Of a stretch of 34,143 bases of DNA, positions 2,995-30,402 are shown in pieces. This DNA comes from an uncultured Meiothermus sp. (lineage in GTDB: Bacteria > Deinococcota > Deinococci > Deinococcales > Thermaceae), in contig CALFDH010000020.1 of the NCBI GenBank assembly GCA_937950405.1, positions 1 to 34,143 on the forward strand, written 5' to 3'. The translations under genes and the position numbers were made by a program. Under the pieces are notes generated by a model. It searched no databases and was not told where the DNA came from. It saw nothing but the letters and a program-made list of their open reading frames with translations. How positions within the stretch are numbered: the stretch's first letter is position 1; each line of letters opens with the position of its first letter.

Positions 2995-3098
2995 CTACGT
3001 TGGAGTATAGCCGAAAAACTTGCTTTTTTTTGATGATTTGACCCCGGTTCCCTCTGGCACGGATAGCCAGACTATCTGCACTCCGTTCGCAATTGGTC

Positions 3099-3226
3099 AT
3101 ACCAGATTCGGTTGGTTCGTTACCGAATGGTAACGAACCAACCCGACCGAAGGGAGTGCTCTGGGATTCAAAAAGATAGCCCTGGGGGTTTTTGGTTTGG
3201 TGAAGTATCTTTTTGAATCCAGTATC
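3099..3226. repeat. Copy A of a TIR-bounded intergenic repeat (~128 bp)
   Basis: ataccagattc...gaatccagtat termini; perfect 15-bp inverted repeat 3110-3124/3129-3143 (ggttggttcgttacc/ggtaacgaaccaacc); second perfect 15-bp inverted repeat 3164-3178/3206-3220 (ggattcaaaaagata/tatctttttgaatcc); ~90% identical to copy C at 27746. Confidence 0.85.
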
Positions 3227-3230
3227 GCAA

Positions 3231-3426
3231 CAGATTCGGTTAGTTCGTTACCCTTCGGCGGCGAACTAACCCGACCGGAGTTATCCGCGTAGCAAAGGGC
3301 GATACCGCTCCTTGGAAGAAAGACGTTTTTTTTCGCCGACCGAGGGGAGGGGTGTGCGCTAGGATTCAAAAAAGATAGCCCCCTGGGACTTTTGTTTTGT
3401 AAAGTATCCTATTAAACCCGGTATCA
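3231..3426. repeat. Copy B of the same repeat family, degenerate and longer
   Basis: cagattcggttagttcg...cgaactaacccgaccgg (10-bp stem 3238-3247/3262-3271) and aggattcaaaaaagatagcc...aaagtatcctattaaacccggtatc, with ~75 nt of extra sequence between the modules. Confidence 0.7.
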
Positions 3427-10438: not shown

Positions 10439-12037
10439 TCAAGCCTGGGGGGTCGTGATGGGGGGGTTTTCCTCGGTGGTGTTTTGCAGATGGGCCCGCT
10501 CAATCAGGTCTTTCTCCCAGCCCAGGTAGTACTGCTTTACCGATTCCGAGGCAGTGTCCTCGGTGAGATACTTGACATTGGAGTATATCGAGGCCCGGTA
10601 GTCGCGTACCTTGCCGCTACGCAGGGCATCAATCACCTGCTGAATGCCCTTTTCTACCGTCCACTGTGGCACAAAGCCCAACAAGTAACGAATCTTGGAA
10701 AAGTCTACGCGGTAGTTGCGCCGGTCGCCATCGCGGCCTGAGTCAATCAGCTCGGCGTCGGGAACCAGTTTCTTGACCAGTTCGCCTACCATGCCCAGGG
10801 TCATGTTGCCGTCGTTTCCGCCCACATTAAAGGTCTCGTTGTGGACGCGCTCCTTGGGAGCCTCCACCGCCAACATCACCGCCAGCGAGGCATCGTCCAC
10901 GTGGACAAAAGGCCGCCACTGATCGCCCCCAAACACCGTGATCTTCTTGTCCACAATGGCCTTGGCAGTAAGCAGGTTGACCACCAGGTCGAAGCGGGTA
11001 CGGCCCGAGAGGCCATAAATGGTGCCAAAACGCAGGATCACCACCGAAAAGTCGTCGCTCTGGAGCTTGTGCAGCACCTGCTCGGAGGCAATCTTGCTGC
11101 GGGCGTAGAGCGAGACCGGGTTCAGGCTGCTCCGCTCGTTGAGCACCATGTCGCTGGCCCCGTACACCGAGCAGGTGCTGGCAAAGATGAAACGCCGCAC
11201 ATGCATACCCTTGGCGATCTCGGCAATGGTGCGGGTTGCCACCAGGTTGATTTCGATGGTCAGGTTTTCATCCAGGGCACAGGCCGGGTCACCCACCAGG
11301 CCGCCCAGGTGTACCACGGTGTCCACCCCGCGCATGGCCTCCACCACTTTGTCCACCTGGCGGAAATCGGCCTGGATGATTTCCAGGTTGGGGTGGTGCA
11401 GGACGTGAGCAATGGGCTCCTTACCGAACATCAGCAGGTCGAGCAAGCGCACCTTGTAGCCCCGCTCCAACAGCCGGGGCAGCAAACCCGAGCCGATATA
11501 ACCCGCACCCCCAATCACCAGGATGGTGCGGTCGTTGGTGTGGAGGTTGGGGATGGGGCTAGCCTTGGCCTCGGCCCTGGCTTTTCGCCCTAGTTCAACA
11601 ATGAACCAGTAATGCACCCAGGCACGGGAGCCCAGGGTAAGTGCTAGCGTGAAGAGAAAGCCCAAAAACACCACCAAGCTGGGTGGGTTGGCCACGGCAG
11701 GAATCATGAAAACGGTAAAGCCATATACCAAATACACCAGGGCAACGGCCTGGGCTACCACCAGCATTTTGTAACGACCCCGGTAGGCACGACCCCTGGT
11801 ATAGAAGCCGTTGGCAGCAAAAATGGCAAAGCTGACCAGCATCAGAATCCAGATGTTCTGGGCGTACACCTGAGCATACTGTCCCAACAGACTGGGGTTG
11901 GCCCCCGCTCCGTTGTAGGCCAGGAGCAAGTGAATCACCATCGCCACCGCAAAGCTTCCTGCAACCATAAGTTGGTCGGCCAGGGCCCGCAACATCACAT
12001 CGGGGCTAAAGCGCAATTCCTTCAAATTCTGAATCAT
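10439..12037 (-). CDS. Membrane-anchored NAD-dependent sugar epimerase/dehydratase (extended SDR)
   Basis: N-terminal ~170 aa with about four TM segments, then VIGGAGYIGSGLL Rossmann motif, STCSVYG and YARSK catalytic residues. Confidence 0.85.
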   Translation of the reverse strand: MIQNLKELRFSPDVMLRALADQLMVAGSFAVAMVIHLLLAYNGAGANPSLLGQYAQVYAQNIWILMLVSFAIFAANGFYTRGRAYRGRYKMLVVAQAVALVYLVYGFTVFMIPAVANPPSLVVFLGFLFTLALTLGSRAWVHYWFIVELGRKARAEAKASPIPNLHTNDRTILVIGGAGYIGSGLLPRLLERGYKVRLLDLLMFGKEPIAHVLHHPNLEIIQADFRQVDKVVEAMRGVDTVVHLGGLVGDPACALDENLTIEINLVATRTIAEIAKGMHVRRFIFASTCSVYGASDMVLNERSSLNPVSLYARSKIASEQVLHKLQSDDFSVVILRFGTIYGLSGRTRFDLVVNLLTAKAIVDKKITVFGGDQWRPFVHVDDASLAVMLAVEAPKERVHNETFNVGGNDGNMTLGMVGELVKKLVPDAELIDSGRDGDRRNYRVDFSKIRYLLGFVPQWTVEKGIQQVIDALRSGKVRDYRASIYSNVKYLTEDTASESVKQYYLGWEKDLIERAHLQNTTEENPPITTPQA

Positions 12038-12055
12038 CCCTGCTCCTCTCGCACC

Positions 12056-13279
12056 CTAGCGCGAAGCCTCTTGCATCACCTGTTCGGACACATCGGCGGT
12101 AGCCTGGATATGCTCCATGCTCAGGGTGGGGTGAACCAGGAACATCAGGGAGGTCTCACCCAGCTCCTTGGCCACCGGCAAGCGCTCGGCAGGCTGCCAG
12201 CCGCGTTTGGTAAAGGCTTTCTCGAGATAAATTTCTCCACAGCTTCCGGTGGTACATGGAATACCGGCTTCAGAAATAGCTATCATGATGCGGTCCCGGT
12301 TCCAGCCCGACTTGAGCATCTCGGGGCGCACATAGACGTAGTACTTGTAATAGGCGTGGTATAGATCGGCGGGCACCTCTGGTACGCGCAGAGCTGGGAT
12401 CTGTCGGAAGCGCTCACTCAAGTAGTGGGCATGCATCCGGCGTTTCTCGATCCAACCGTCCAGCTTGCGCAAAATCACCCGGCCAATGGCCGACTGCACT
12501 TCGAGCATCCGCCAGTTGGTACCGAAATCCTCGTGCAGCCAGCGGAAGCCCGGAGGGTGCTGGCGGTTGTAGACCGCGTCGTAGCTCTTGCCGTGATCCT
12601 TGAAGCTCCAGGCATTGCTCCAAAGCTCGTCATCGTTCAGAGTGAGCATCCCGCCCTCGCCACCGGTGGTCAGAATCTTGTCCTGGCAGAATGACCAGGC
12701 CCCTGCATGGCCGATGGAGCCCACACTCTTGCCCTTGTACTTGGCGCCGTGGGCCTGAGCACAGTCCTCAATCACCCAAAGGTTGTGCTTACGAGCCAGC
12801 TCCATGATGGGGTCCATATCCGCAGGCCATCCCGCCAGGTGCACTACAATAATGGCCTTGGTGCGGGGGGTGATGACCTTCTCGATGGTCTCGGCAGTAA
12901 TCAGGCCACTGTCACGGTCTACGTCAGCCATGATCGGCCTAGCCCCCCGCATTACCGCTGCACTGGCCGAGGCAATGAAGGTGCGCGGGGTGGTGATGAC
13001 TTCGTCACCTTCCCCCACACCCATCGCATACAAGGCCAGTTCGATCGCTACGGTGCCATTGTGCAAGGCAATGGCATGTTTAGTACCGACATAGTCGGCA
13101 AATTCGCGCTCGAAGATGCGGCCTTCCTGGCCCGTCCAGTAATTCACCTTGCCGGACTGAAGCACCCTGACTGCTGCTTCGATTTCATCGGGCTCAAAGT
13201 AGGGCCAGGGAGCAAAAGGTGTGACGGTAACGGGATTTTTCAACATCGGTGCGCTCCTTCGTAGGCTGGAGACATTCAT
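12056..13279 (-). CDS. DegT/DnrJ/EryC1/StrS aminotransferase of the polysaccharide cluster (start may be the internal Met, MLKNPV)
   Basis: ALHNGTVAIELALYAMGVGEGDEVITTPRTF, VIEDCAQAHGAKYKGKSVGSIGHAGAWSFCQDK. Confidence 0.9.
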   Translation of the reverse strand: MNVSSLRRSAPMLKNPVTVTPFAPWPYFEPDEIEAAVRVLQSGKVNYWTGQEGRIFEREFADYVGTKHAIALHNGTVAIELALYAMGVGEGDEVITTPRTFIASASAAVMRGARPIMADVDRDSGLITAETIEKVITPRTKAIIVVHLAGWPADMDPIMELARKHNLWVIEDCAQAHGAKYKGKSVGSIGHAGAWSFCQDKILTTGGEGGMLTLNDDELWSNAWSFKDHGKSYDAVYNRQHPPGFRWLHEDFGTNWRMLEVQSAIGRVILRKLDGWIEKRRMHAHYLSERFRQIPALRVPEVPADLYHAYYKYYVYVRPEMLKSGWNRDRIMIAISEAGIPCTTGSCGEIYLEKAFTKRGWQPAERLPVAKELGETSLMFLVHPTLSMEHIQATADVSEQVMQEASR

Positions 13280-13671
13280 CTCCGGAGATATGCTAGAAAG
13301 GGTAGGTCAAATAGCGTTATGCCTGCGTTATTCGCCAAAAAGTGCGATGTATAGCTGCATTGTCGCCTTCGTTACGCCTGCTCGCAAGGCTTTTTCACGG
13401 AGCAACACAGCAGTAACGTGCCTGATAACGAAGACTGACGTGAGCACAACCCCAAGGCTGCCTTCGAAATCTACAAGAAATCCCGTTCAGGAAGTTTTTA
13501 TTTCCAGGTATAGAACCATTCCGTTTCTTACCATCCGTAACCGGGTGTTACAGATTAACGGGTCATTTATCCCTATCACACAACGGCGATTCAAGACAGG
13601 TACAAAGCACCTGATTGCATTTTCAGAGTTTTTAGAAAGAATGCCCCTGTCCAATTGGGTTGAAATTTGGT

Positions 13672-14622
13672 TCAGAGGGCCCCTAGCCGATAGGCTGACC
13701 AGAATAAAAAAGCCACCACCAAGAGGATCAAAGACGCTCCTACCAGCAAAACAGCGTTGCTGACAATCAGGCCCACTTTGACCAGAATGGCCGTGATTGC
13801 CCAGACCACCAGTACGGTCTTGGCAGGGTTGCGCACATAAAGCTGATCCAGTCGGTCATAGGTGTGGTCCCGATCACCGTCGAAAATGGGCTTGCCCCGC
13901 CGCCAGCGCCGGATAATCCCCGCCGCCATATCGTAGAGTGGGAAACTCACCATGACCCCAGCGGCCAGAAAAGTGATCCAGCCGTGGGTAGCAGAGAGCA
14001 TCAACAGCACGGCCAGCATGTAGCCCGTCGAGAGGCTCCCGCAATCGCCCATGAAGGTTTTGGCCTTTGGATAATTCCACACCAAAAAGCCCACAAGGCT
14101 GCCTACCACAATAATGGCCAGCATGGCCTCGAGTTCTAGCGACCAGAGCATAACTGCCAAACCCGCGGCCGAGATCATGGCGTTACCGGAGGCCAGCCCG
14201 TTCATGCCATCAATCAGGTTCACAGCGTTGGCCATCAGCGGAACCAGCACAATCCCCATAGCCAGCCCCAACCATCCCAACTCGCTCCAGAAGTGCACGC
14301 CCAGAACCACCCCAGCCACCAATTCGGCGGCCAGGCGGGTCTTGGGCGATAGGTTGTAGCGGTCGTCAAGGGTGCCGGTAGCGGCAATAATTAGCAGACC
14401 CAGCAAAGCCCATCCTGACAAGGAGCCCGTGTACAAACCCCAGATGGCGATAGTAGCCACGATACCCATCCCTCCAAAACGCGGGGTAGGCAGGGCATGA
14501 ATCTTGATTTCCCCGGGCTTATCCACAATGCCTAGGGCTCGAGCCAGCGGAATGGACAACCCTACCAGGGCCACCGCAGACACCACCGTGAAGAGCAACA
14601 ACAACCAGTCCAACACAAACAT
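13672..14622 (-). CDS. MraY/WecA/TagO-family undecaprenyl-phosphate sugar-1-phosphate transferase
   Basis: DKPGEIKIHALPTPRFGGMGI, NLIDGMNGLASG and MGDCGSLSTGY motifs; polytopic. Confidence 0.88.
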   Translation of the reverse strand: MFVLDWLLLLFTVVSAVALVGLSIPLARALGIVDKPGEIKIHALPTPRFGGMGIVATIAIWGLYTGSLSGWALLGLLIIAATGTLDDRYNLSPKTRLAAELVAGVVLGVHFWSELGWLGLAMGIVLVPLMANAVNLIDGMNGLASGNAMISAAGLAVMLWSLELEAMLAIIVVGSLVGFLVWNYPKAKTFMGDCGSLSTGYMLAVLLMLSATHGWITFLAAGVMVSFPLYDMAAGIIRRWRRGKPIFDGDRDHTYDRLDQLYVRNPAKTVLVVWAITAILVKVGLIVSNAVLLVGASLILLVVAFLFWSAYRLGAL

Positions 14623-14628
14623 CCTCTC

Positions 14629-15783
14629 TCAGACCGGCGTCAGCACCGGCTGGCTGCCCAGTGCTTCGACATAAAGCACTTCATGAAGGTGGATAATGTT
14701 GCGCAGATCATAGGATTTCATGCGCTCGCGCCCCTTGTGCCCCATCTCCTGGCTTGCCTCGGGGTTTTCGAGGATCCACTGCATGGCTTTAGCAATAGCT
14801 TTCACGTCTCCAACCTCGGTCAGGAAGCCGCAACCATCCACCAGCAACTCGTGTACCCCCCGGATATCCGCCCCGATCACCGGGATGCCCAGTGCCAGCG
14901 ACTCCAGCACAGCTCTGGGTAGGCCTTCACGCTCGGAGGGCAGCAGGGTCGCGTTGGAAGCGCGGATGAGGGCAGGAATATCCCGCCTCCATCCCAGGAT
15001 ACGCACCTGATCCTCCAGCCCCAGGTTTTTTGACATAGCCCGGATGTCTTCCATCAGCGGGCCAATGCCTGCCAGGGCCAGCACCACGTCTTTCCGGCCC
15101 AGCTCGGCCAGCGCGTTAATTGCATCGCGGTGGCGTTTCTCTGGAGCGTATTCGGCAATCATGAAGAACAGGGGCTGGCCCTCTTGCAGGCCCAGCTCGG
15201 CCCGTACCTGGGCAACTGCCTCGTCATTTACTGCGTCGGCAGAATAGTAGTTCAGGTCTACCCCGATGCCCGGCATATAGCGCAGGCGGCTCTCGGGCAC
15301 GATCCGGTAGCGGCGGCTGGCTTCTTCATCCTCACGGTTGATGACCACCAGATAGTCTGTCCAGGGGCCGGCAATTTTTTCGATACCGAGGAATACCAAG
15401 TTCTTCAGTGGATGACCCCGCTTGTGAAAGTGGTAGCCGTGTACGGTGTAGATAATCCTGGGACGGCGCGGTACGCCGCGCAGGGCCATGCGGGCAATAA
15501 AGGCCGAGACCGGCGTATGCACATGCACGATATCGTAGCCACCGCGCTCGACCAGATCGCGTACCTGCTGTAGCCCTCGCAGGAAGTTTTGCGTGTCGAG
15601 GGGATTGCGCGTCCACTCCAAATCGAAGACCTGGTCGAAGTGCTCTACACAACGGGTGCAGTCGGGCATTTCCGCTGCAGCTGCATCTACCTGCCAACCC
15701 TGAGCACGAAAGTGATCTGCGAATGGTAACAAAAAGTCGGTGAAAAAGCGGGCGATGTTAGCGAGAAACAGGACTTTGGGCAT
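14629..15783 (-). CDS. Glycosyltransferase family 4
   Basis: HVHTPVSAFIARMALR, YTVHGYHFHKRG, LPSEREGLPRAVLESLALGIPVIGADIRGVHELL. Confidence 0.88.
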   Translation of the reverse strand: MPKVLFLANIARFFTDFLLPFADHFRAQGWQVDAAAAEMPDCTRCVEHFDQVFDLEWTRNPLDTQNFLRGLQQVRDLVERGGYDIVHVHTPVSAFIARMALRGVPRRPRIIYTVHGYHFHKRGHPLKNLVFLGIEKIAGPWTDYLVVINREDEEASRRYRIVPESRLRYMPGIGVDLNYYSADAVNDEAVAQVRAELGLQEGQPLFFMIAEYAPEKRHRDAINALAELGRKDVVLALAGIGPLMEDIRAMSKNLGLEDQVRILGWRRDIPALIRASNATLLPSEREGLPRAVLESLALGIPVIGADIRGVHELLVDGCGFLTEVGDVKAIAKAMQWILENPEASQEMGHKGRERMKSYDLRNIIHLHEVLYVEALGSQPVLTPV

Positions 15784-16930
15784 CTTTCACCTCCATTGTG
15801 AGGCCCTTGCGGCGAAGCTGCTCGGCATAGATGGCTTCCCACTGAGTCAGAACGGACTCAAGGCTATAGTGTTGCTGCACAAAAGCCCGCGCAGCCTCCC
15901 CCATGCGTCGTCTTTGCACCTCTGGCAAGGCCATGAGGCGTAGCATGGCAGCACTCAAGGACTGGGCATTTTTGGGGGGTACCAGGTAGCCGGTCTGCCC
16001 CTCCAGCACCACTTCGCGGTTGCCACCCACGTCGGTTGCCACCATGGGTAGGCCGGTAGAAGCGGCTTCTAGCAAGACCATGGGCAGGCCCTCCCAGGCC
16101 GAGGACATCACGTAACCGTCGGCAGCGTTCATTAGGGCCGAGATGTCTTTGCGTAGACCCAGAAAGCAAACTGCTTCACCTAAGCCCAGGGTTTGGGCCA
16201 ACTGCCGGGTGGCCTCCATCTGCTCCCCCAGACCCGCAATCATCAGCCGGGTTTCGGGGCGCTGGGCATGAACCCTGGCAAAAGCTTGCAGCATGTTGGG
16301 ATAGTCCTTGGCCTCAGCAAACCGGCCCACTGCCAGCCAAACAAACTGCGCATCCCAGCCCAACTCCCCCCGTAACTTGGCCCGGAGTTTGGGATCAGGG
16401 CTGAACTCGAGGCTGTTGATGCCATTGGGCATGAAGCGAATTTTCTCCTTGGGAACAGCCCCTACGCTAACGTAGCGCTCCAGGCCAGCCTGGCTCACCT
16501 GGGTGGTGAGGTCGCACCAAGGGTCGGTCAGGCGGTAGGCAATCTCGCGCCAGCGTGAACCCTCGTTGATGTTGTGGGCGGTGGAAATCAAAACCGGCAC
16601 CGGGGCCAGGAGTCGGGCGGCCCGGCCCAGTAGATTGGCGTGGACCATGTGGGTGTGAACTATTTGCGGCTTCTGCTCGCGCAGGTAGCGGGCCAGGGCC
16701 AGCACCGCTCTGGGATCAGGGCTGCCAGGCCTCATCTCCAGCGAGAGGGTAGGGATCTGAGCCTGCGCCAAGTCCTGAGCAACGTATTCCAGCGGAATCA
16801 ACGAGACCACCGAGACCTGCCATCCTCGCTCTTGGAGGCCCGTGGCCAGGCGCACCAACTGAGTCTCGGCTCCCCCCATACCCAGGGTGGTGATCACAAA
16901 AACAATTCGTTTTGGAACAATTGCGGTCAT
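15758..16930 (-). CDS. Glycosyltransferase family 4
   Basis: TTLGMGGAETQLVRLATGL, VHTHMVHANLLGR, SSAWEGLPMVLLEAASTGLPMVATDVGGNREVV. Confidence 0.9.
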   Translation of the reverse strand: MTAIVPKRIVFVITTLGMGGAETQLVRLATGLQERGWQVSVVSLIPLEYVAQDLAQAQIPTLSLEMRPGSPDPRAVLALARYLREQKPQIVHTHMVHANLLGRAARLLAPVPVLISTAHNINEGSRWREIAYRLTDPWCDLTTQVSQAGLERYVSVGAVPKEKIRFMPNGINSLEFSPDPKLRAKLRGELGWDAQFVWLAVGRFAEAKDYPNMLQAFARVHAQRPETRLMIAGLGEQMEATRQLAQTLGLGEAVCFLGLRKDISALMNAADGYVMSSAWEGLPMVLLEAASTGLPMVATDVGGNREVVLEGQTGYLVPPKNAQSLSAAMLRLMALPEVQRRRMGEAARAFVQQHYSLESVLTQWEAIYAEQLRRKGLTMEVKDAQSPVSR

Positions 16931-16934
16931 GGTT

Positions 16935-18125
16935 TTAGCTCTTCTCTACTCGCAACGCCAATGCCGGCTGCTTGGCAGACAACCAGGCCGGATAAAGCAG
17001 CTTCCAGTGGGTCAAGATCATGCCGAATACGAACCAGGTCTGCTTGCGCCACTCCCAGTTCTGGGCCATAAAAGCCAGGAATAAGATTGCCAGTGCTGTG
17101 AACCAGAGACCGCGCTCGAGGGGGGGCACCTGCCACAGCACCGCCACCACGCTCACCAGCATCAACATAAAGAGTCCCAGGCCCACCAGTCCCATCTCGG
17201 TGGCAATGGAAACAAACAGGTTGTGTGGGGCTACCCAGTCGCGGAATAGCTCGTGCTCGCGCAAGGATGCACCAAAGGCCCCTGCGCCCACACCCAGAAT
17301 GGGGTGGTCCGAGAAGTTCTGCCAACCAGCCAGCCAGATGTTGGTACGGTCGTTGAGGCTGCCCTGGGTCAGTTCCTCGCTCAAGGTTGCCAGGCGTGAA
17401 AAACTCTCCGCAGGAACCAGCATCGGAATCATCCACAAGGCCACCAAGCCCAATACTGTAGCTAGGACCTTCACCCGCCAGGAAGCTCTGGGCAGGGTGA
17501 AAAACACGAACAAGAGCCCCACCGCCACCCCCAACAAACCCGCCCTGGCTGCGGTTAACAAAATGACCATAACTGCTACAAGGGGATACAGTCGGTAAAG
17601 CCAGACCAGCCGGGAATTCTCCTTGAAGGCCAGGTACCAGGCCATCGGGATGCCCAGGGCCAGTACAAAGGACAGGTCGCCAGGGTCAAAACCATCGGCT
17701 GCAAAGCGCTGGTAATAGGCTTCAGAACCGCTCAAAAAGTTGGAGATGGTGTTGAAACCCGCCACATAGCAGCCCAGCACATAGGCCACCAAAACCCCAC
17801 GCAGTTGCTCAGGTTTTTCCAATACCGAGAACAAAATCCAGAAAAAAGCGAACAGCAATCCATACTGGAAAACACGGTTGAGGGTGTCGGCTGTTTCGAT
17901 ACTCCAGAAATAGCTGAGTGCCGCTAGCAGAGCGAACAGCACGCCCCAAACGTGGGCCTGGTGGAAGCGCAATGAACCGGAAAGCAATACATAGAGCAAC
18001 CCAATCCCTACTGCTCCGATACCCACAAAGCGGCTCAGGGTGCCCAACCCCGGAAGGGTGATGATGTTCTCCCAGGGGACGGTAAACACATACAGCCACA
18101 AGGCAAGATAGGCTAGTCGAGCCAC
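16935..18125 (-). CDS. O-antigen ligase/polymerase family protein (Wzy/WaaL-like)
   Basis: Polytopic membrane protein with GVGAGAFGASLREHELFRDWVAPHNLFVSIATEMGLVGLGLF (PHNxxL-type WaaL motif). Confidence 0.85.
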   Translation of the reverse strand: MARLAYLALWLYVFTVPWENIITLPGLGTLSRFVGIGAVGIGLLYVLLSGSLRFHQAHVWGVLFALLAALSYFWSIETADTLNRVFQYGLLFAFFWILFSVLEKPEQLRGVLVAYVLGCYVAGFNTISNFLSGSEAYYQRFAADGFDPGDLSFVLALGIPMAWYLAFKENSRLVWLYRLYPLVAVMVILLTAARAGLLGVAVGLLFVFFTLPRASWRVKVLATVLGLVALWMIPMLVPAESFSRLATLSEELTQGSLNDRTNIWLAGWQNFSDHPILGVGAGAFGASLREHELFRDWVAPHNLFVSIATEMGLVGLGLFMLMLVSVVAVLWQVPPLERGLWFTALAILFLAFMAQNWEWRKQTWFVFGMILTHWKLLYPAWLSAKQPALALRVEKS

Positions 18126-18126
18126 T

Positions 18127-19224
18127 TTACTTCCCCCTCAGCAATTGCAGGTATTGATTCACCACTACCGCCTGGGTATAGCCTGCATACGCTTCTTCCG
18201 ATGTCAGCTTGCGGGGTTCGGAGAGGGTGGCCGTGATGGCCTGAGCTAAAGCGGAAGCATTATTCATGGGTACCAGGCGACCCAGCATTCCCCCTCGCAA
18301 AATTTCCCTAGGCCCGCTAGGGCAGTCTGTAGCCACCACCGGGGTTCCCAGCGCCAGGGCTTCGATGAGTACCGTAGGCAATCCCTCCCAGTCGGAAGAT
18401 AAGACAAACATAGCAGCCCTTTTCATGTAGGCGTAGGGATTTTGCACAAACCCCGGCAAGCTCACTTCGGCTTGCAGGCCCAGCTCACCTATCAGGGCCT
18501 CGAGCGCCGAACGGTCTTCGCCCTCGCCCAAAATCATCAGGCGGGAGGGGTGCTGCTTGCGAACCTCCGCAAAAGCACGAATCAGGTTGGGAAAATTCTT
18601 CTGCTGGGTCAGGCGGCCCACCCCCAGCAAAACGGGCGGCTGACCGGGTTGGAGCCAGGGGTGCTCGACATGTTCCTCGGCCCGCTTGAAGAGATCAGGA
18701 GTCACGACCGGGTTGTGAATGACCCTCACCTTCTGGCGAATCCCGGTCATCTTGATGAAGTCGTCCACCACGCCCTGCGAAACCCCCACGATACCGGTGG
18801 CCCAGGGGTAAAAAAGCCTCATGGCCAGGGGCGTCAGGCGACCCCGAATGGAACTGGCATGGCTCGCATCCTGGGTCGGGGTGTTTTGCATGCAAACCGC
18901 CACCCGGCTCTGCCCACCCGCCAGCCGCCAAGCCCACAAGGCCACTACATTGGCATGGTCGAGGGCCGAGACCATACCCACCGGTTTTTCTTCTCGCAGG
19001 TAGCGGGTCAGTGCTGGCAAACTCGACAGCACCCGCCCTGCTTTCAAGTCCACCACCCGAACCTGTGGGGGTACCATCTTCAGGTAGGGGCCCGTAGCTG
19101 CGGCCAGCACCAGGTCTACGTCTACATCTTGCTCTGCCATCCCAATGGCCAAGTTGAGCATCGAGCGCTCAGCCCCGCCCCCCAACAAGGCTGGGAGATA
19201 GACCGCAAATCGTTCTCTAGACAT
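18127..19224 (-). CDS. Glycosyltransferase family 4
   Basis: LGVGRLTQQKNFPNLIRAFAEVR, LSSDWEGLPTVLIEALALGTPVVATDCPSGPREIL. Confidence 0.9.
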   Translation of the reverse strand: MSRERFAVYLPALLGGGAERSMLNLAIGMAEQDVDVDLVLAAATGPYLKMVPPQVRVVDLKAGRVLSSLPALTRYLREEKPVGMVSALDHANVVALWAWRLAGGQSRVAVCMQNTPTQDASHASSIRGRLTPLAMRLFYPWATGIVGVSQGVVDDFIKMTGIRQKVRVIHNPVVTPDLFKRAEEHVEHPWLQPGQPPVLLGVGRLTQQKNFPNLIRAFAEVRKQHPSRLMILGEGEDRSALEALIGELGLQAEVSLPGFVQNPYAYMKRAAMFVLSSDWEGLPTVLIEALALGTPVVATDCPSGPREILRGGMLGRLVPMNNASALAQAITATLSEPRKLTSEEAYAGYTQAVVVNQYLQLLRGK

Positions 19225-19239
19225 CTATTACCTCCCAAC

Positions 19240-20409
19240 TCATACGCTTTTGAGAGCCGCTGTGGGCTGACCCAGCACTGCCTCAAAGAGGGCCACGTAG
19301 TGGGCCACCGCCCGCTCCACCGAAAAGCGTTCCTTGACTTTGGCTCTGGCTTTTGCGCCAAATTCTGCTTGCAGTTGTGGGTCTTGCAAGACCCCGACCA
19401 GTCCATCGGCTAGCGCCTGCGGGTTACCGGTGTCCACCAAAAGCCCGTCTACCCCCGAGTTCACGAACTCCGGGGCCGTCGCAAAGCGGGTCAGCACCAC
19501 CGGCTTACCCAGGTACATGGCCTCCGAAAGAACCAGTGGTGAAGCCTCGCCAAAGGCGGAAGACATCGTAAAAACCGTAGCCCTGGCCATGTACTTGTAG
19601 GGGTTGGCCTGAAAACCGGGCATCCAGACCCATTCCCCGATACCCAGCTCCGCTACCAGCGACTCCAACTGGGGGCGCAGCTCACCTTCACCCAGGATGG
19701 CCAGCCGGGCCTGGGGGATCCGTTCCCGGACCCGTTGGAAGGCCCGCAGCAAGGTGGGAAAATCCTTCATGGTGTCCATGCGACCCACCGAGAGAACAAC
19801 GGGGGTCTGGCCCTGAAACCAGGGGTGTTCTACAGGCTCCTGGGCTTTGCGCTCGAGGTCGGGGGCAATGGCCGGGTTGTAGATGACGCGGAAGTTGGAA
19901 CCGGGATACACCGCCCCGGACAGGCGGGCCACCTTCTCCGAAACCGCCACATAGGCATCCGCATTGCGCACCAGCAAGCGTATCAAGGCTGTTTTGAGCG
20001 CACCTCGCAAGCCCGGCCCCAGGTAACCCTGAATCTCATTGTGTTCGGTGAGAATCCACTTGGGCCGCCGTGCCGGGGGCAACAACCCCAAAGCCATTCC
20101 CACTGTTAGGTGAACCCTAGGCCAGGCGGAGAGGAGCAGGTCAGGTTGGTACTCGTCCAGTATGGACAGCAAGCGCCGCACCTGCCGGGGAATTGCTCGG
20201 TGCTTCATAGCCGAGCGCTCGATAGGAGCGGGCAAGATGGTGACATTGGCGGGTAGCTTGGCCTGGGAAAGCAGGTCGCCCGGTTCGGAACCCTGGGCCG
20301 CCACCAGAATGTCGTAGTGGCCTGCCAGTCCAGCCGACAGGTACTGAACTACCCGCTCCACTCCGCCGTAGCCGAGAATAGGAATGTAGAAAAGGACTCG
20401 AGGCTTCAT
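19240..20409 (-). CDS. Glycosyltransferase family 4 (ORF open to 20457; MKPRVLFYIPILGYGGVERV is the likely start)
   Basis: GYGGVERVVQYLSAGL, LSVGRMDTMKDFPTLLRAFQRVR, GEASPLVLSEAMYLGKPVVLTRFATAPEFV. Confidence 0.88.
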   Translation of the reverse strand: MKPRVLFYIPILGYGGVERVVQYLSAGLAGHYDILVAAQGSEPGDLLSQAKLPANVTILPAPIERSAMKHRAIPRQVRRLLSILDEYQPDLLLSAWPRVHLTVGMALGLLPPARRPKWILTEHNEIQGYLGPGLRGALKTALIRLLVRNADAYVAVSEKVARLSGAVYPGSNFRVIYNPAIAPDLERKAQEPVEHPWFQGQTPVVLSVGRMDTMKDFPTLLRAFQRVRERIPQARLAILGEGELRPQLESLVAELGIGEWVWMPGFQANPYKYMARATVFTMSSAFGEASPLVLSEAMYLGKPVVLTRFATAPEFVNSGVDGLLVDTGNPQALADGLVGVLQDPQLQAEFGAKARAKVKERFSVERAVAHYVALFEAVLGQPTAALKSV

Positions 20410-21659
20410 AGGATCTTCCGCAGCTTGAGCACTATAAAACGGAACCCGGCAGCCCAAGCCTCTGCCGAGACCACCGCAATAGCCATTCCTAAAGCCCCCA
20501 TGCGCGGGGCCAGTATCAACGCCAGCACCAGGTTCAACGCGCTGGCGCTGAGCACCGAGTACATCACCTCGCGATCCATCTGCCGGGGAAACATGTATTG
20601 CATAGAAAGCGAATACCCAAAGCCCACAATGGGCAGCAGCAGAGACATCACCTGCAACACCGGAATCGAAGCTTTGTACTGCTCACCAAATAGCAAGGTC
20701 ACCAGAAGGGGGGCCAAGGCTGCCAACAGTACCCCTCCCACCAGCCCAATCCCCACCGTGGCCCACAAAGCCAGACGGCTCAGGCGCATGGCCGCGTCGA
20801 CATCGCGCTTGATGAGGTGGTTGATACGAGGATAGATGGCCTGGGCCAGCGGCCACAAAATCGCAAGCCCAGGACGCACCAGCCGATTACCATTCTCGAA
20901 AAAACCCACCTGGATGGGCGAGGTCAAAAGCCCCAGAATCACCCCATTAGCCGAGGTGTAAAAACTGTCCGAGGCCCGAGCCAGAAACAGGCTCCAACTC
21001 ACCCGCAAGGCCACCCAGCTCATACTCAGATTGGGCACCTTGAGGGGGATCTCGCGGTACATAAGCCAAAGCTCGATGATGGTGGCCAGACCATAGGCAA
21101 TGGCCTGCACCGCCAGGGCTAACCAGGTGTCTTCGGGACTGCGCACAAAAATGAAAATTCCGATCAGGTGGCCCAGTCGTATAAAGCCCTCCAAAATCGC
21201 CACTACCCAGGTGCGCTCGATGGCCTGGAAGTACCATACGGGGCTAAGGGATGCAGCCACGGCAATCATCAAGGCCCAAAAGGCCAGGGCGGTATGGGCC
21301 CGAAAGCTCTCTATCGCAAACCAGGCCAGGGCGGTCAGGGCCACCATCCCAATCACCAACAATAACTTGGCCCCCATGATGGACATCACGATTCCGGCCA
21401 CGGCGTCTTTTCGATCCCGCAATCGGGCAATGGAACGGGTAGCGGAATAGTTGAAGCCATACTCTCCCACCACCGCCAGCCAGTTAGCAAAGCTCTGGGC
21501 AAAGGCCACCAAGCCAAAGCTGGGGGGCTCGAGTACCCGTGCCAGGTAGGGCAGTGAAATTAAGGGGAGGACATATGAGAGGATCTGCACGGCATACAAA
21601 GCTGCCGCATTCTGTGCGATGCGGTTACCCAGTACCCGGCGAATTCTCGCTAAAGCCAC
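20406..21659 (-). CDS. Oligosaccharide flippase (Wzx / polysaccharide biosynthesis protein family)
   Basis: QNAAALYAVQILSYVLPLISLPYLARVLEPPSFGLVAFAQSFANW N-terminus; ~12 predicted TM segments. Confidence 0.9.
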   Translation of the reverse strand: MALARIRRVLGNRIAQNAAALYAVQILSYVLPLISLPYLARVLEPPSFGLVAFAQSFANWLAVVGEYGFNYSATRSIARLRDRKDAVAGIVMSIMGAKLLLVIGMVALTALAWFAIESFRAHTALAFWALMIAVAASLSPVWYFQAIERTWVVAILEGFIRLGHLIGIFIFVRSPEDTWLALAVQAIAYGLATIIELWLMYREIPLKVPNLSMSWVALRVSWSLFLARASDSFYTSANGVILGLLTSPIQVGFFENGNRLVRPGLAILWPLAQAIYPRINHLIKRDVDAAMRLSRLALWATVGIGLVGGVLLAALAPLLVTLLFGEQYKASIPVLQVMSLLLPIVGFGYSLSMQYMFPRQMDREVMYSVLSASALNLVLALILAPRMGALGMAIAVVSAEAWAAGFRFIVLKLRKIL

Positions 21660-27484: not shown

Positions 27485-27744
27485 CTCTGGCAGAGTGTTG
27501 TGGAAATACCCACACACTTCTACAAGGTTCCAATAGCTACTGTATTGAAAGTCAAGCAGCCTGTGCAGGCATGGGCGGGGCTCTACAGAGGTCGTACAAA
27601 GCCGTTCAACCCCGCCTGAATCCCCCCTCCGCCGTAGGAAGCGACCAAAGGCGCGGGATGTGGTTTTGGTCAGATAACGTAAAACAGGCGGTCGGATAGC
27701 CGTCGAGTCTTGCCGCGATGAATGCATTGCACAAGCATGTGTAC

Positions 27745-27871
27745 TACCAGATTCGGTTAGTTCGTTACCGAATGGTGACGAACTAACCCGACCGAAGGAA
27801 GTGCTCTATGATTCAAAAAGATAGCCCCTGGGGTTTTTGGTTTGGTGAAGTATCTTTTTGAATCCGGTATA
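27745..27871. repeat. Copy C of the TIR-bounded intergenic repeat
   Basis: taccagattcggttagttcgttaccgaatggtgacgaactaacccgaccgaagg...tatctttttgaatccggtata; ~10 differences from copy A. Confidence 0.85.
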
Positions 27872-27913
27872 CGACCTACAGATAAACTGTAGTCAAACAA
27901 AGCGAGGTCGGCC

Positions 27914-30156: not shown

Positions 30157-30402
30157 CTACTGCTTGGCAGCCGCTTTCTTGGGAGCAGCCTTCTTCGCGG
30201 CAGGTTTCGCAGCGGCCTTGGCCGCAGGCTTGGCAGCGGCTTTTTTGGGAGCCGCTTTGGTCGCAGCCGGCTTGGCAGCAGACTTAGCGGTAGACTTCGC
30301 AGCAGCCTTGGCCGCAGGCTTGGCAGCAGGCTTCTTGGCTGCGGGTTTGGCGGCGGCTTTCTTGGCAGCAGGCTTCTTGGCGGTTTCTTGGTTTTCAGGC
30401 AT
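30157..30402 (-). CDS. Ala/Lys/Pro-rich histone-H1-like nucleoid protein
   Basis: 81 aa composed almost entirely of A, K and P (KKPAAKKAAAKPAAKKPAAKPAAK...); aggagg RBS upstream (ctaaggaggaacatacATG); strong terminator downstream. Confidence 0.85.
   Translation of the reverse strand: MPENQETAKKPAAKKAAAKPAAKKPAAKPAAKAAAKSTAKSAAKPAATKAAPKKAAAKPAAKAAAKPAAKKAAPKKAAAKQ

Follow-up and report, generated by a model that had tools for sequence, protein, structure and literature searches.

The intergenic repeat described here belongs to a MITE family that is shared by three Thermaceae genera and is an element of a known kind. This gene-less family inserts at TNA with a 3-bp duplication, and on the strength of sequence comparison we think it likely that it is moved in trans by an IS630-type transposase. 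Like bacterial MITEs, its members are shorter than ~250 bp and free of coding genes, end reproducibly in terminal inverted repeats, and show target-site duplications together with empty sites. No earlier description of the family was found in the literature searched, where coverage of subscription journals was small.

Copies in the window and distribution of the family

The window is the whole stretch of DNA analyzed, positions 1 to 34,143 of contig CALFDH010000020.1 (assembly GCA_937950405.1) from an uncultured Meiothermus sp. The initial annotation had described two copies of ~127 bp with about 10 differences, at 3099-3226 and 27745-27871. Both copies (A and C) are real, but their true edges, as set by target duplications and empty sites, lie 1-2 bases inside these limits, so that each is 125 bp long, with 9 differences over 125 bp. 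A third copy (B, 3228-3423), which had been overlooked, adjoins copy A, and a TCA target is common to both. The features are as follows.

3097..3099, + strand: left target duplication of copy A, TCA (placed by the 3-bp duplication rule)
3100..3224, + strand: copy A, short-form MITE, 125 bp, TACCAGATTC...GAATCCAGTA
3225-3227: right-hand target copy of copy A, TCG and not TCA
3228..3423, + strand: copy B, long-form MITE, 196 bp, left end eroded, CAACAGATTC
3424..3426, + strand: right target duplication of copy B, TCA
27742..27744 and 27870-27872, + strand: target duplication of copy C, TAC, identical on both sides
27745..27869, + strand: copy C, short-form MITE, 125 bp, TACCAGATTC...GAATCCGGTA

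From the order TCA-A-TCG-B-TCA, copy A appears to have inserted into TCA beside copy B. Copy C has a protein-kinase gene on one side and an acetyl-CoA synthetase gene on the other. The matching inverted termini reported previously are terminal inverted repeats, TACCAGATTC / GAATCCrGTA, and, in line with the earlier statement that the window lacks a transposase, no transposase family was matched among the 20 main ORFs tested. Elsewhere in the window, the minus strand carries surface polysaccharide genes at 10439-21659 (an epimerase, a DegT aminotransferase, several glycosyltransferases, and a flippase-like Polysacc_synt) and, at 30185-30391, 90-bp direct repeats in tandem with 4 registers, resembling a low-complexity Ala/Lys-rich coding repeat.

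Most copies of the family are 123-127 bp long and a minority are 194-196 bp long. The long form, including copy B, holds ~70 bp more than the 125-bp form, located between two CCGACCG repeats. The short form looks like the product of a deletion between these direct repeats, by which a ~195-bp form would have lost ~70 bp to give the common 125-bp form. All size classes are devoid of a coding gene and too short for a transposase gene.

The annotation had proposed searching this and related genomes for further copies, and dozens to >100 copies per genome were recovered from the source genome and its relatives. In the source genome, 40 near-full copies were scored at 86-100% identity, from 168 first-look candidates. 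Exact matches to the target joined to the left end, TNA + TACCRGATTCRGTT, came to 77 there and to 126, 156, 84, 43, and 70 in five relatives, whereas a reversed control pattern gave 0 matches in all six genomes counted. Among 111 genomes of the order, 19 contain the family, and these belong to three genera of hot-spring bacteria only, namely Meiothermus, Calidithermus, and Allomeiothermus (all Thermaceae; from named records, with some genus assignments being presumptive). The listed genomes of another genus of the same family (g5, presumably Thermus) contained none, and neither did the phage and viral collections; two plasmid records carry copies. Since the window itself has no more than three copies, one might think of a segmental duplication there or of chance similarity, but hundreds of dispersed copies with sharp edges in 19 genomes reduce that explanation to practically nothing.

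A second repeat family, with the sequence ...GTGGTCTGGTAAC..., was observed in one genome (G014, loci L194, L298, L302, L306, L311, and L312), and several MITEs occupy the same point inside copies of it. Because these MITEs share one point in the GTGGTCTGGTAAC-containing repeat, part of the MITE count of this genome may reflect carriage.

Edges, target duplication and empty sites

We examined edges and targets in 156 distinct copies with flanks. The terminal ends are identical across all of them, making the edges reproducible, and the 3-bp flanks on the two sides are identical in 114 of the 156 (22% expected by chance), almost always as TTA, TAA, TCA, or TGA. Among the 125 copies with TNA on both sides, the middle base is the same in 112, compared with 35 expected.

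Empty sites are seen within and between species. An insertion in one species (L322, G002) is empty in another (L340, G003), with 98.7% identity over 297 bp and a single TAA; reciprocally, L322 is empty where L340 carries its insertion, with 90.5% identity and a single TGA. For a long-form copy (L194), the empty counterpart (L311, 99.7% identity) lies in the same genome, within a repeated region. The length of 3 bp is settled, since the empty sites hold a single TAA or TGA. These sites prove that the target duplication of the family is 3 bp, with the TA lying inside the element. A plain IS630-type duplication of TA was rejected, the empty sites being five bases shorter than a TA-only duplication predicts.

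The claim of a non-autonomous mobile element is thus upheld by the many copies, the reproducible edges, the 3-bp target duplications, the empty sites, and the lack of a transposase inside; copies confined to the window or edges varying between copies, either of which had been named as counting against it, were not found. Beyond the reach of that annotation were the target (TNA), the long-form copies, nested ISs mimicking parents (see below), and the likely IS630-type partner.

In a first count, 16 of 79 insertions fell on stop codons, with 6.5 expected. The excess was gone with stricter gene calls (8 versus 5.7 expected, p 0.17; 4 versus 4.3, p 0.66), and a special preference for stop codons was rejected. 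Because TAA and TGA are themselves TNA sites, an insertion at a stop codon rebuilds the stop, and a MITE landing exactly on a TAA or TGA stop can leave the protein intact.

Hairpins and gene context

Each short-form copy of the window contains two hairpins.

3110..3143, + strand: copy A hairpin 1, GGTTGGTTCGTTACC / GAAT / GGTAACGAACCAACC, 15 bp, perfect
3164..3220, + strand: copy A hairpin 2, GGATTCAAAAAGATA ... TATCTTTTTGAATCC, right arm overlapping the right terminus
27755..27788, + strand: copy C hairpin 1, GGTTAGTTCGTTACC / GAAT / GGTGACGAACTAACC
27810..27864, + strand: copy C hairpin 2, GATTCAAAAAGATA ... TATCTTTTTGAATC

Two perfect hairpins had been claimed; hairpin 1 is indeed perfect in copy A but has one T-G wobble in copy C. 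The second inverted repeat, with its right arm entering the right terminus, is present in both copies as described. Both strands of the window copies fold far better than shuffled sequences, none of 200 shuffles doing as well (z -4.2 to -6.4). In an alignment of 29 diverse copies (A1), both hairpins are kept, with 98.5% of cells paired and 12 pairs showing two-sided change; none of 500 shuffles equals these values, and the signal disappears once the partner is shifted.

The tips of hairpin 1 exist as mutual reverse complements, i.e. GAAT/ATTC, GAAC/GTTC, and AAAG/CTTT, in the pairs CCGAATGG/CCATTCGG, CCGAACGG/CCGTTCGG, and CCAAAGGG/CCCTTTGG. Such tips would be explicable by tip inversion or by strand switching between the arms, either of which can also yield compensatory changes. 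Because strand switching can make compensatory changes as well, the covariation indicates that the arms stay paired and is not by itself proof of selection on RNA. Conservation of the arms may come from selection for a structured single strand, from strand-switch repair between the arms, or from both.

These observations bear on whether the repeat is a structured element retained for a function in RNA or DNA (ending transcripts, stabilizing RNA, or binding a nucleoid protein) and spread by transposition, like ERIC in Yersinia. The alternative of a "structural element" raised in the initial annotation was partly right, given the covariation in both hairpins. The low folding energy of the copies fits a retained function too, as do their position mostly outside genes and the excess of convergent (38) over divergent (17) gene pairs around the insertions on crude gene calls. 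On the same calls, 24 insertions are inside an ORF. However, the window has no match to any Rfam family, the copies have neither a fixed orientation nor a single gene context, their insertion sites differ between species, and the reverse-complement tips are also a product of strand switching. We regard retention for such a function as rather unlikely.

Candidate transposases and related elements

The annotation had also suggested looking for a transposase gene with ATACCrGATTC-type ends. None was found: searches with PF13586, PF01609, PF13340, PF13359, and NF033545 retrieved no IS with exact TACCRGATTC ends from the genomes searched, and none turned up when public genomes were scanned for relatives of the IS630-type protein. 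The source genome (86% complete, 237 contigs) had no IS630 match.

At three loci (L080/G002, L148/G002, and L191/G014), a transposase does lie between MITE ends. Each of the units (1166, 1343, and 1304 bp) lies between TACCRGATTC ends flanked by a TAA duplication, as an autonomous parent would, but every inner IS has inverted ends of its own and a separate target duplication inside the MITE. The L080 IS, which is IS5-like and matches PF13340/PF13586/PF01609, was rejected as parent for its GAGGCTGTCGTAAAAG ends and TGA duplication. The same applies to the IS701-family IS of L148 and L178 (G002; 1211 bp, ends TCAAGAGATTGA), which sits in the loop of MITE hairpin 2 with a TGAT duplication and has four other copies outside MITEs. 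The third, an IS630-family IS rejected on its own ends, its GAA duplication, and its other copies outside MITEs, is placed as follows.

L191:1477-2582, minus strand: IS630-family IS nested in a long-form MITE, 1106 bp, NF033545 match

Because each has its own ends and duplication within a MITE, the three inner ISs are hitchhikers or intruders in MITE copies, and it is very improbable that any such unit is an autonomous parent.

The L191 IS is nonetheless informative. Its ends, TACCAAATCTC / TACCAACTCT, start with TACC, and its insertion into the long-form MITE duplicates GAA; when the flanks are joined with one GAA, the interrupted MITE agrees with an intact long-form copy at 191 of 195 positions. 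Other copies of this IS in Meiothermus are flanked by TTA/TTA or GAA/GAA. This IS630-type element duplicates 3 bp, with the TA lying within its own end, as proven by its own empty site. In identical copies, its transposase is split over two overlapping frames near GGAAAAAGGGGGGC, at a run of A and G, possibly a programmed frameshift.

Further IS630-type ISs behave likewise. Flanks of TGA/TGA or TAA/TAA surround an IS of 1128 bp (ends TACCAACCTTAGATAGATAG / TACCAAATCTATGTAGATAA), TGA/TGA is found around Calidithermus ISs (ends TACCCTTTC), TCA/TCA around a lineage whose ends are TATGAAATCC or TAAGAAATCC, and TAA/TAA around a relative from Chloroflexi (ends TACCAATC). Overall, the IS630-type ISs other than that of L191 have TACC or TAxGAAATCC ends and duplicate TGA, TTA, TAA, or TCA. 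In six IS630-family ISs (L191, L205, L197, L199, L230, and L239), the terminal TA is part of the element and TNA or GAA is duplicated. Two more (L201 and L227) have unequal flanks (TAA at one end, TTA at the opposite end), indicating that insertions are not always clean. The candidate helper transposases match the IS630 model NF033545 and DDE_3 / HTH domains. It counts against such helpers that the genome of M. luteus (G007) has the IS630-type IS and no MITE and that the source genome shows no IS630 match.

The IS630-type ISs share the initial TACC and the 3-bp duplications with the MITEs, and none has the full TACCRGATTC. We infer that this lineage is the best transposase candidate, its ends fitting those of the MITEs better than do the ends of IS5-like ISs; the assignment is held to an inference because a parent with exact TACCRGATTC ends was not found. 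In the proposed mechanism, a transposase encoded elsewhere would recognize the two ~10-bp terminal inverted repeats of each MITE (TACCAGATTC on the left and TACCGGATTC on the right, read inward) and join them to a TNA target cut with a 3-bp stagger. Judging by the matching ends and duplications, the enzyme would belong to the IS630-type lineage of these genera with TACC starts.

The duplication alone cannot name the enzyme, because IS5-type ISs of the same genera also duplicate TNA. The same kind of MITE could depend on an IS5-type (IS1031/PIF-like) transposase, a group where 3-bp TNA-type duplications are usual: TNA target sites have been described in eukaryotic IS5 relatives (PMC4482050), the NuwaII group (PHIS; IS5-family / PIF-Harbinger relatives) is reported to make a 3-bp duplication with a TNA consensus (PMC4482050), and the IS5-like IS with GAGGCTGTCGTAAAAG ends and a TGA duplication resides in the same genomes. 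The 3-bp TNA duplication of the MITEs would fit such an IS5/IS1031-dependent element. Nevertheless, the ends of the IS5-like ISs are wholly unlike those of the MITEs, GAGGCTGTCGTAAAAG having nothing in common with TACCRGATTC. The IS630-type ISs, by contrast, have the same TACC and, in part, the same six bases after it. An IS5-type mobilizer is therefore unlikely, and the mobilizer of the family is probably a borrowed IS630-type transposase.

Among described systems, RUP with IS630-Spn1 is the closest parallel by description. RUP is ~107 bp long, has about 108 intergenic copies with terminal inverted repeats, and is proposed to be mobilized in trans by an IS630-family transposase (PMC2229807). 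It inserts at TA, whereas the Meiothermus family duplicates three bases (TNA) and carries the TA inside; the parent IS of RUP is known, in contrast to the lack of an IS with full TACCRGATTC ends here. ERIC / IRU of enterobacteria, with 127 bp, terminal inverted repeats, TA at the termini, a target duplication, and long stem-loops in RNA (PMC2229807), is alike by description in all these respects; it differs in host group, in lacking the 3-bp TNA duplication of our family, and in its demonstrated role in RNA stability. REP/BIME elements (IS200/IS605-like RAYT; Y1 transposase, single strand) are without a target duplication, unlike the Meiothermus MITE with its 3 bp.

ISY100 and the Shigella IS630 duplicate TA (PMC2170065), whereas ISs and MITEs of the Meiothermus group keep the TA inside and duplicate TNA or GAA. 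A lineage of IS630 elements duplicating 3 bp is unusual because the studied members duplicate TA only. More tentatively, and with considerable doubt, the spacing of strand transfer in a branch of IS630/Tc1-mariner in Meiothermus and its relatives may have shifted from TA (2 bp) to TNA (3 bp). This branch would then drive the MITE family across the genus, with selection on both hairpins as structures that serve in transposition or in RNA.

In summary, the family accounts for a repeat that is abundant between the genes of Meiothermus, Calidithermus, and Allomeiothermus, and the IS630-type ISs with 3-bp duplications provide a testable exception to the family rule of TA duplication.
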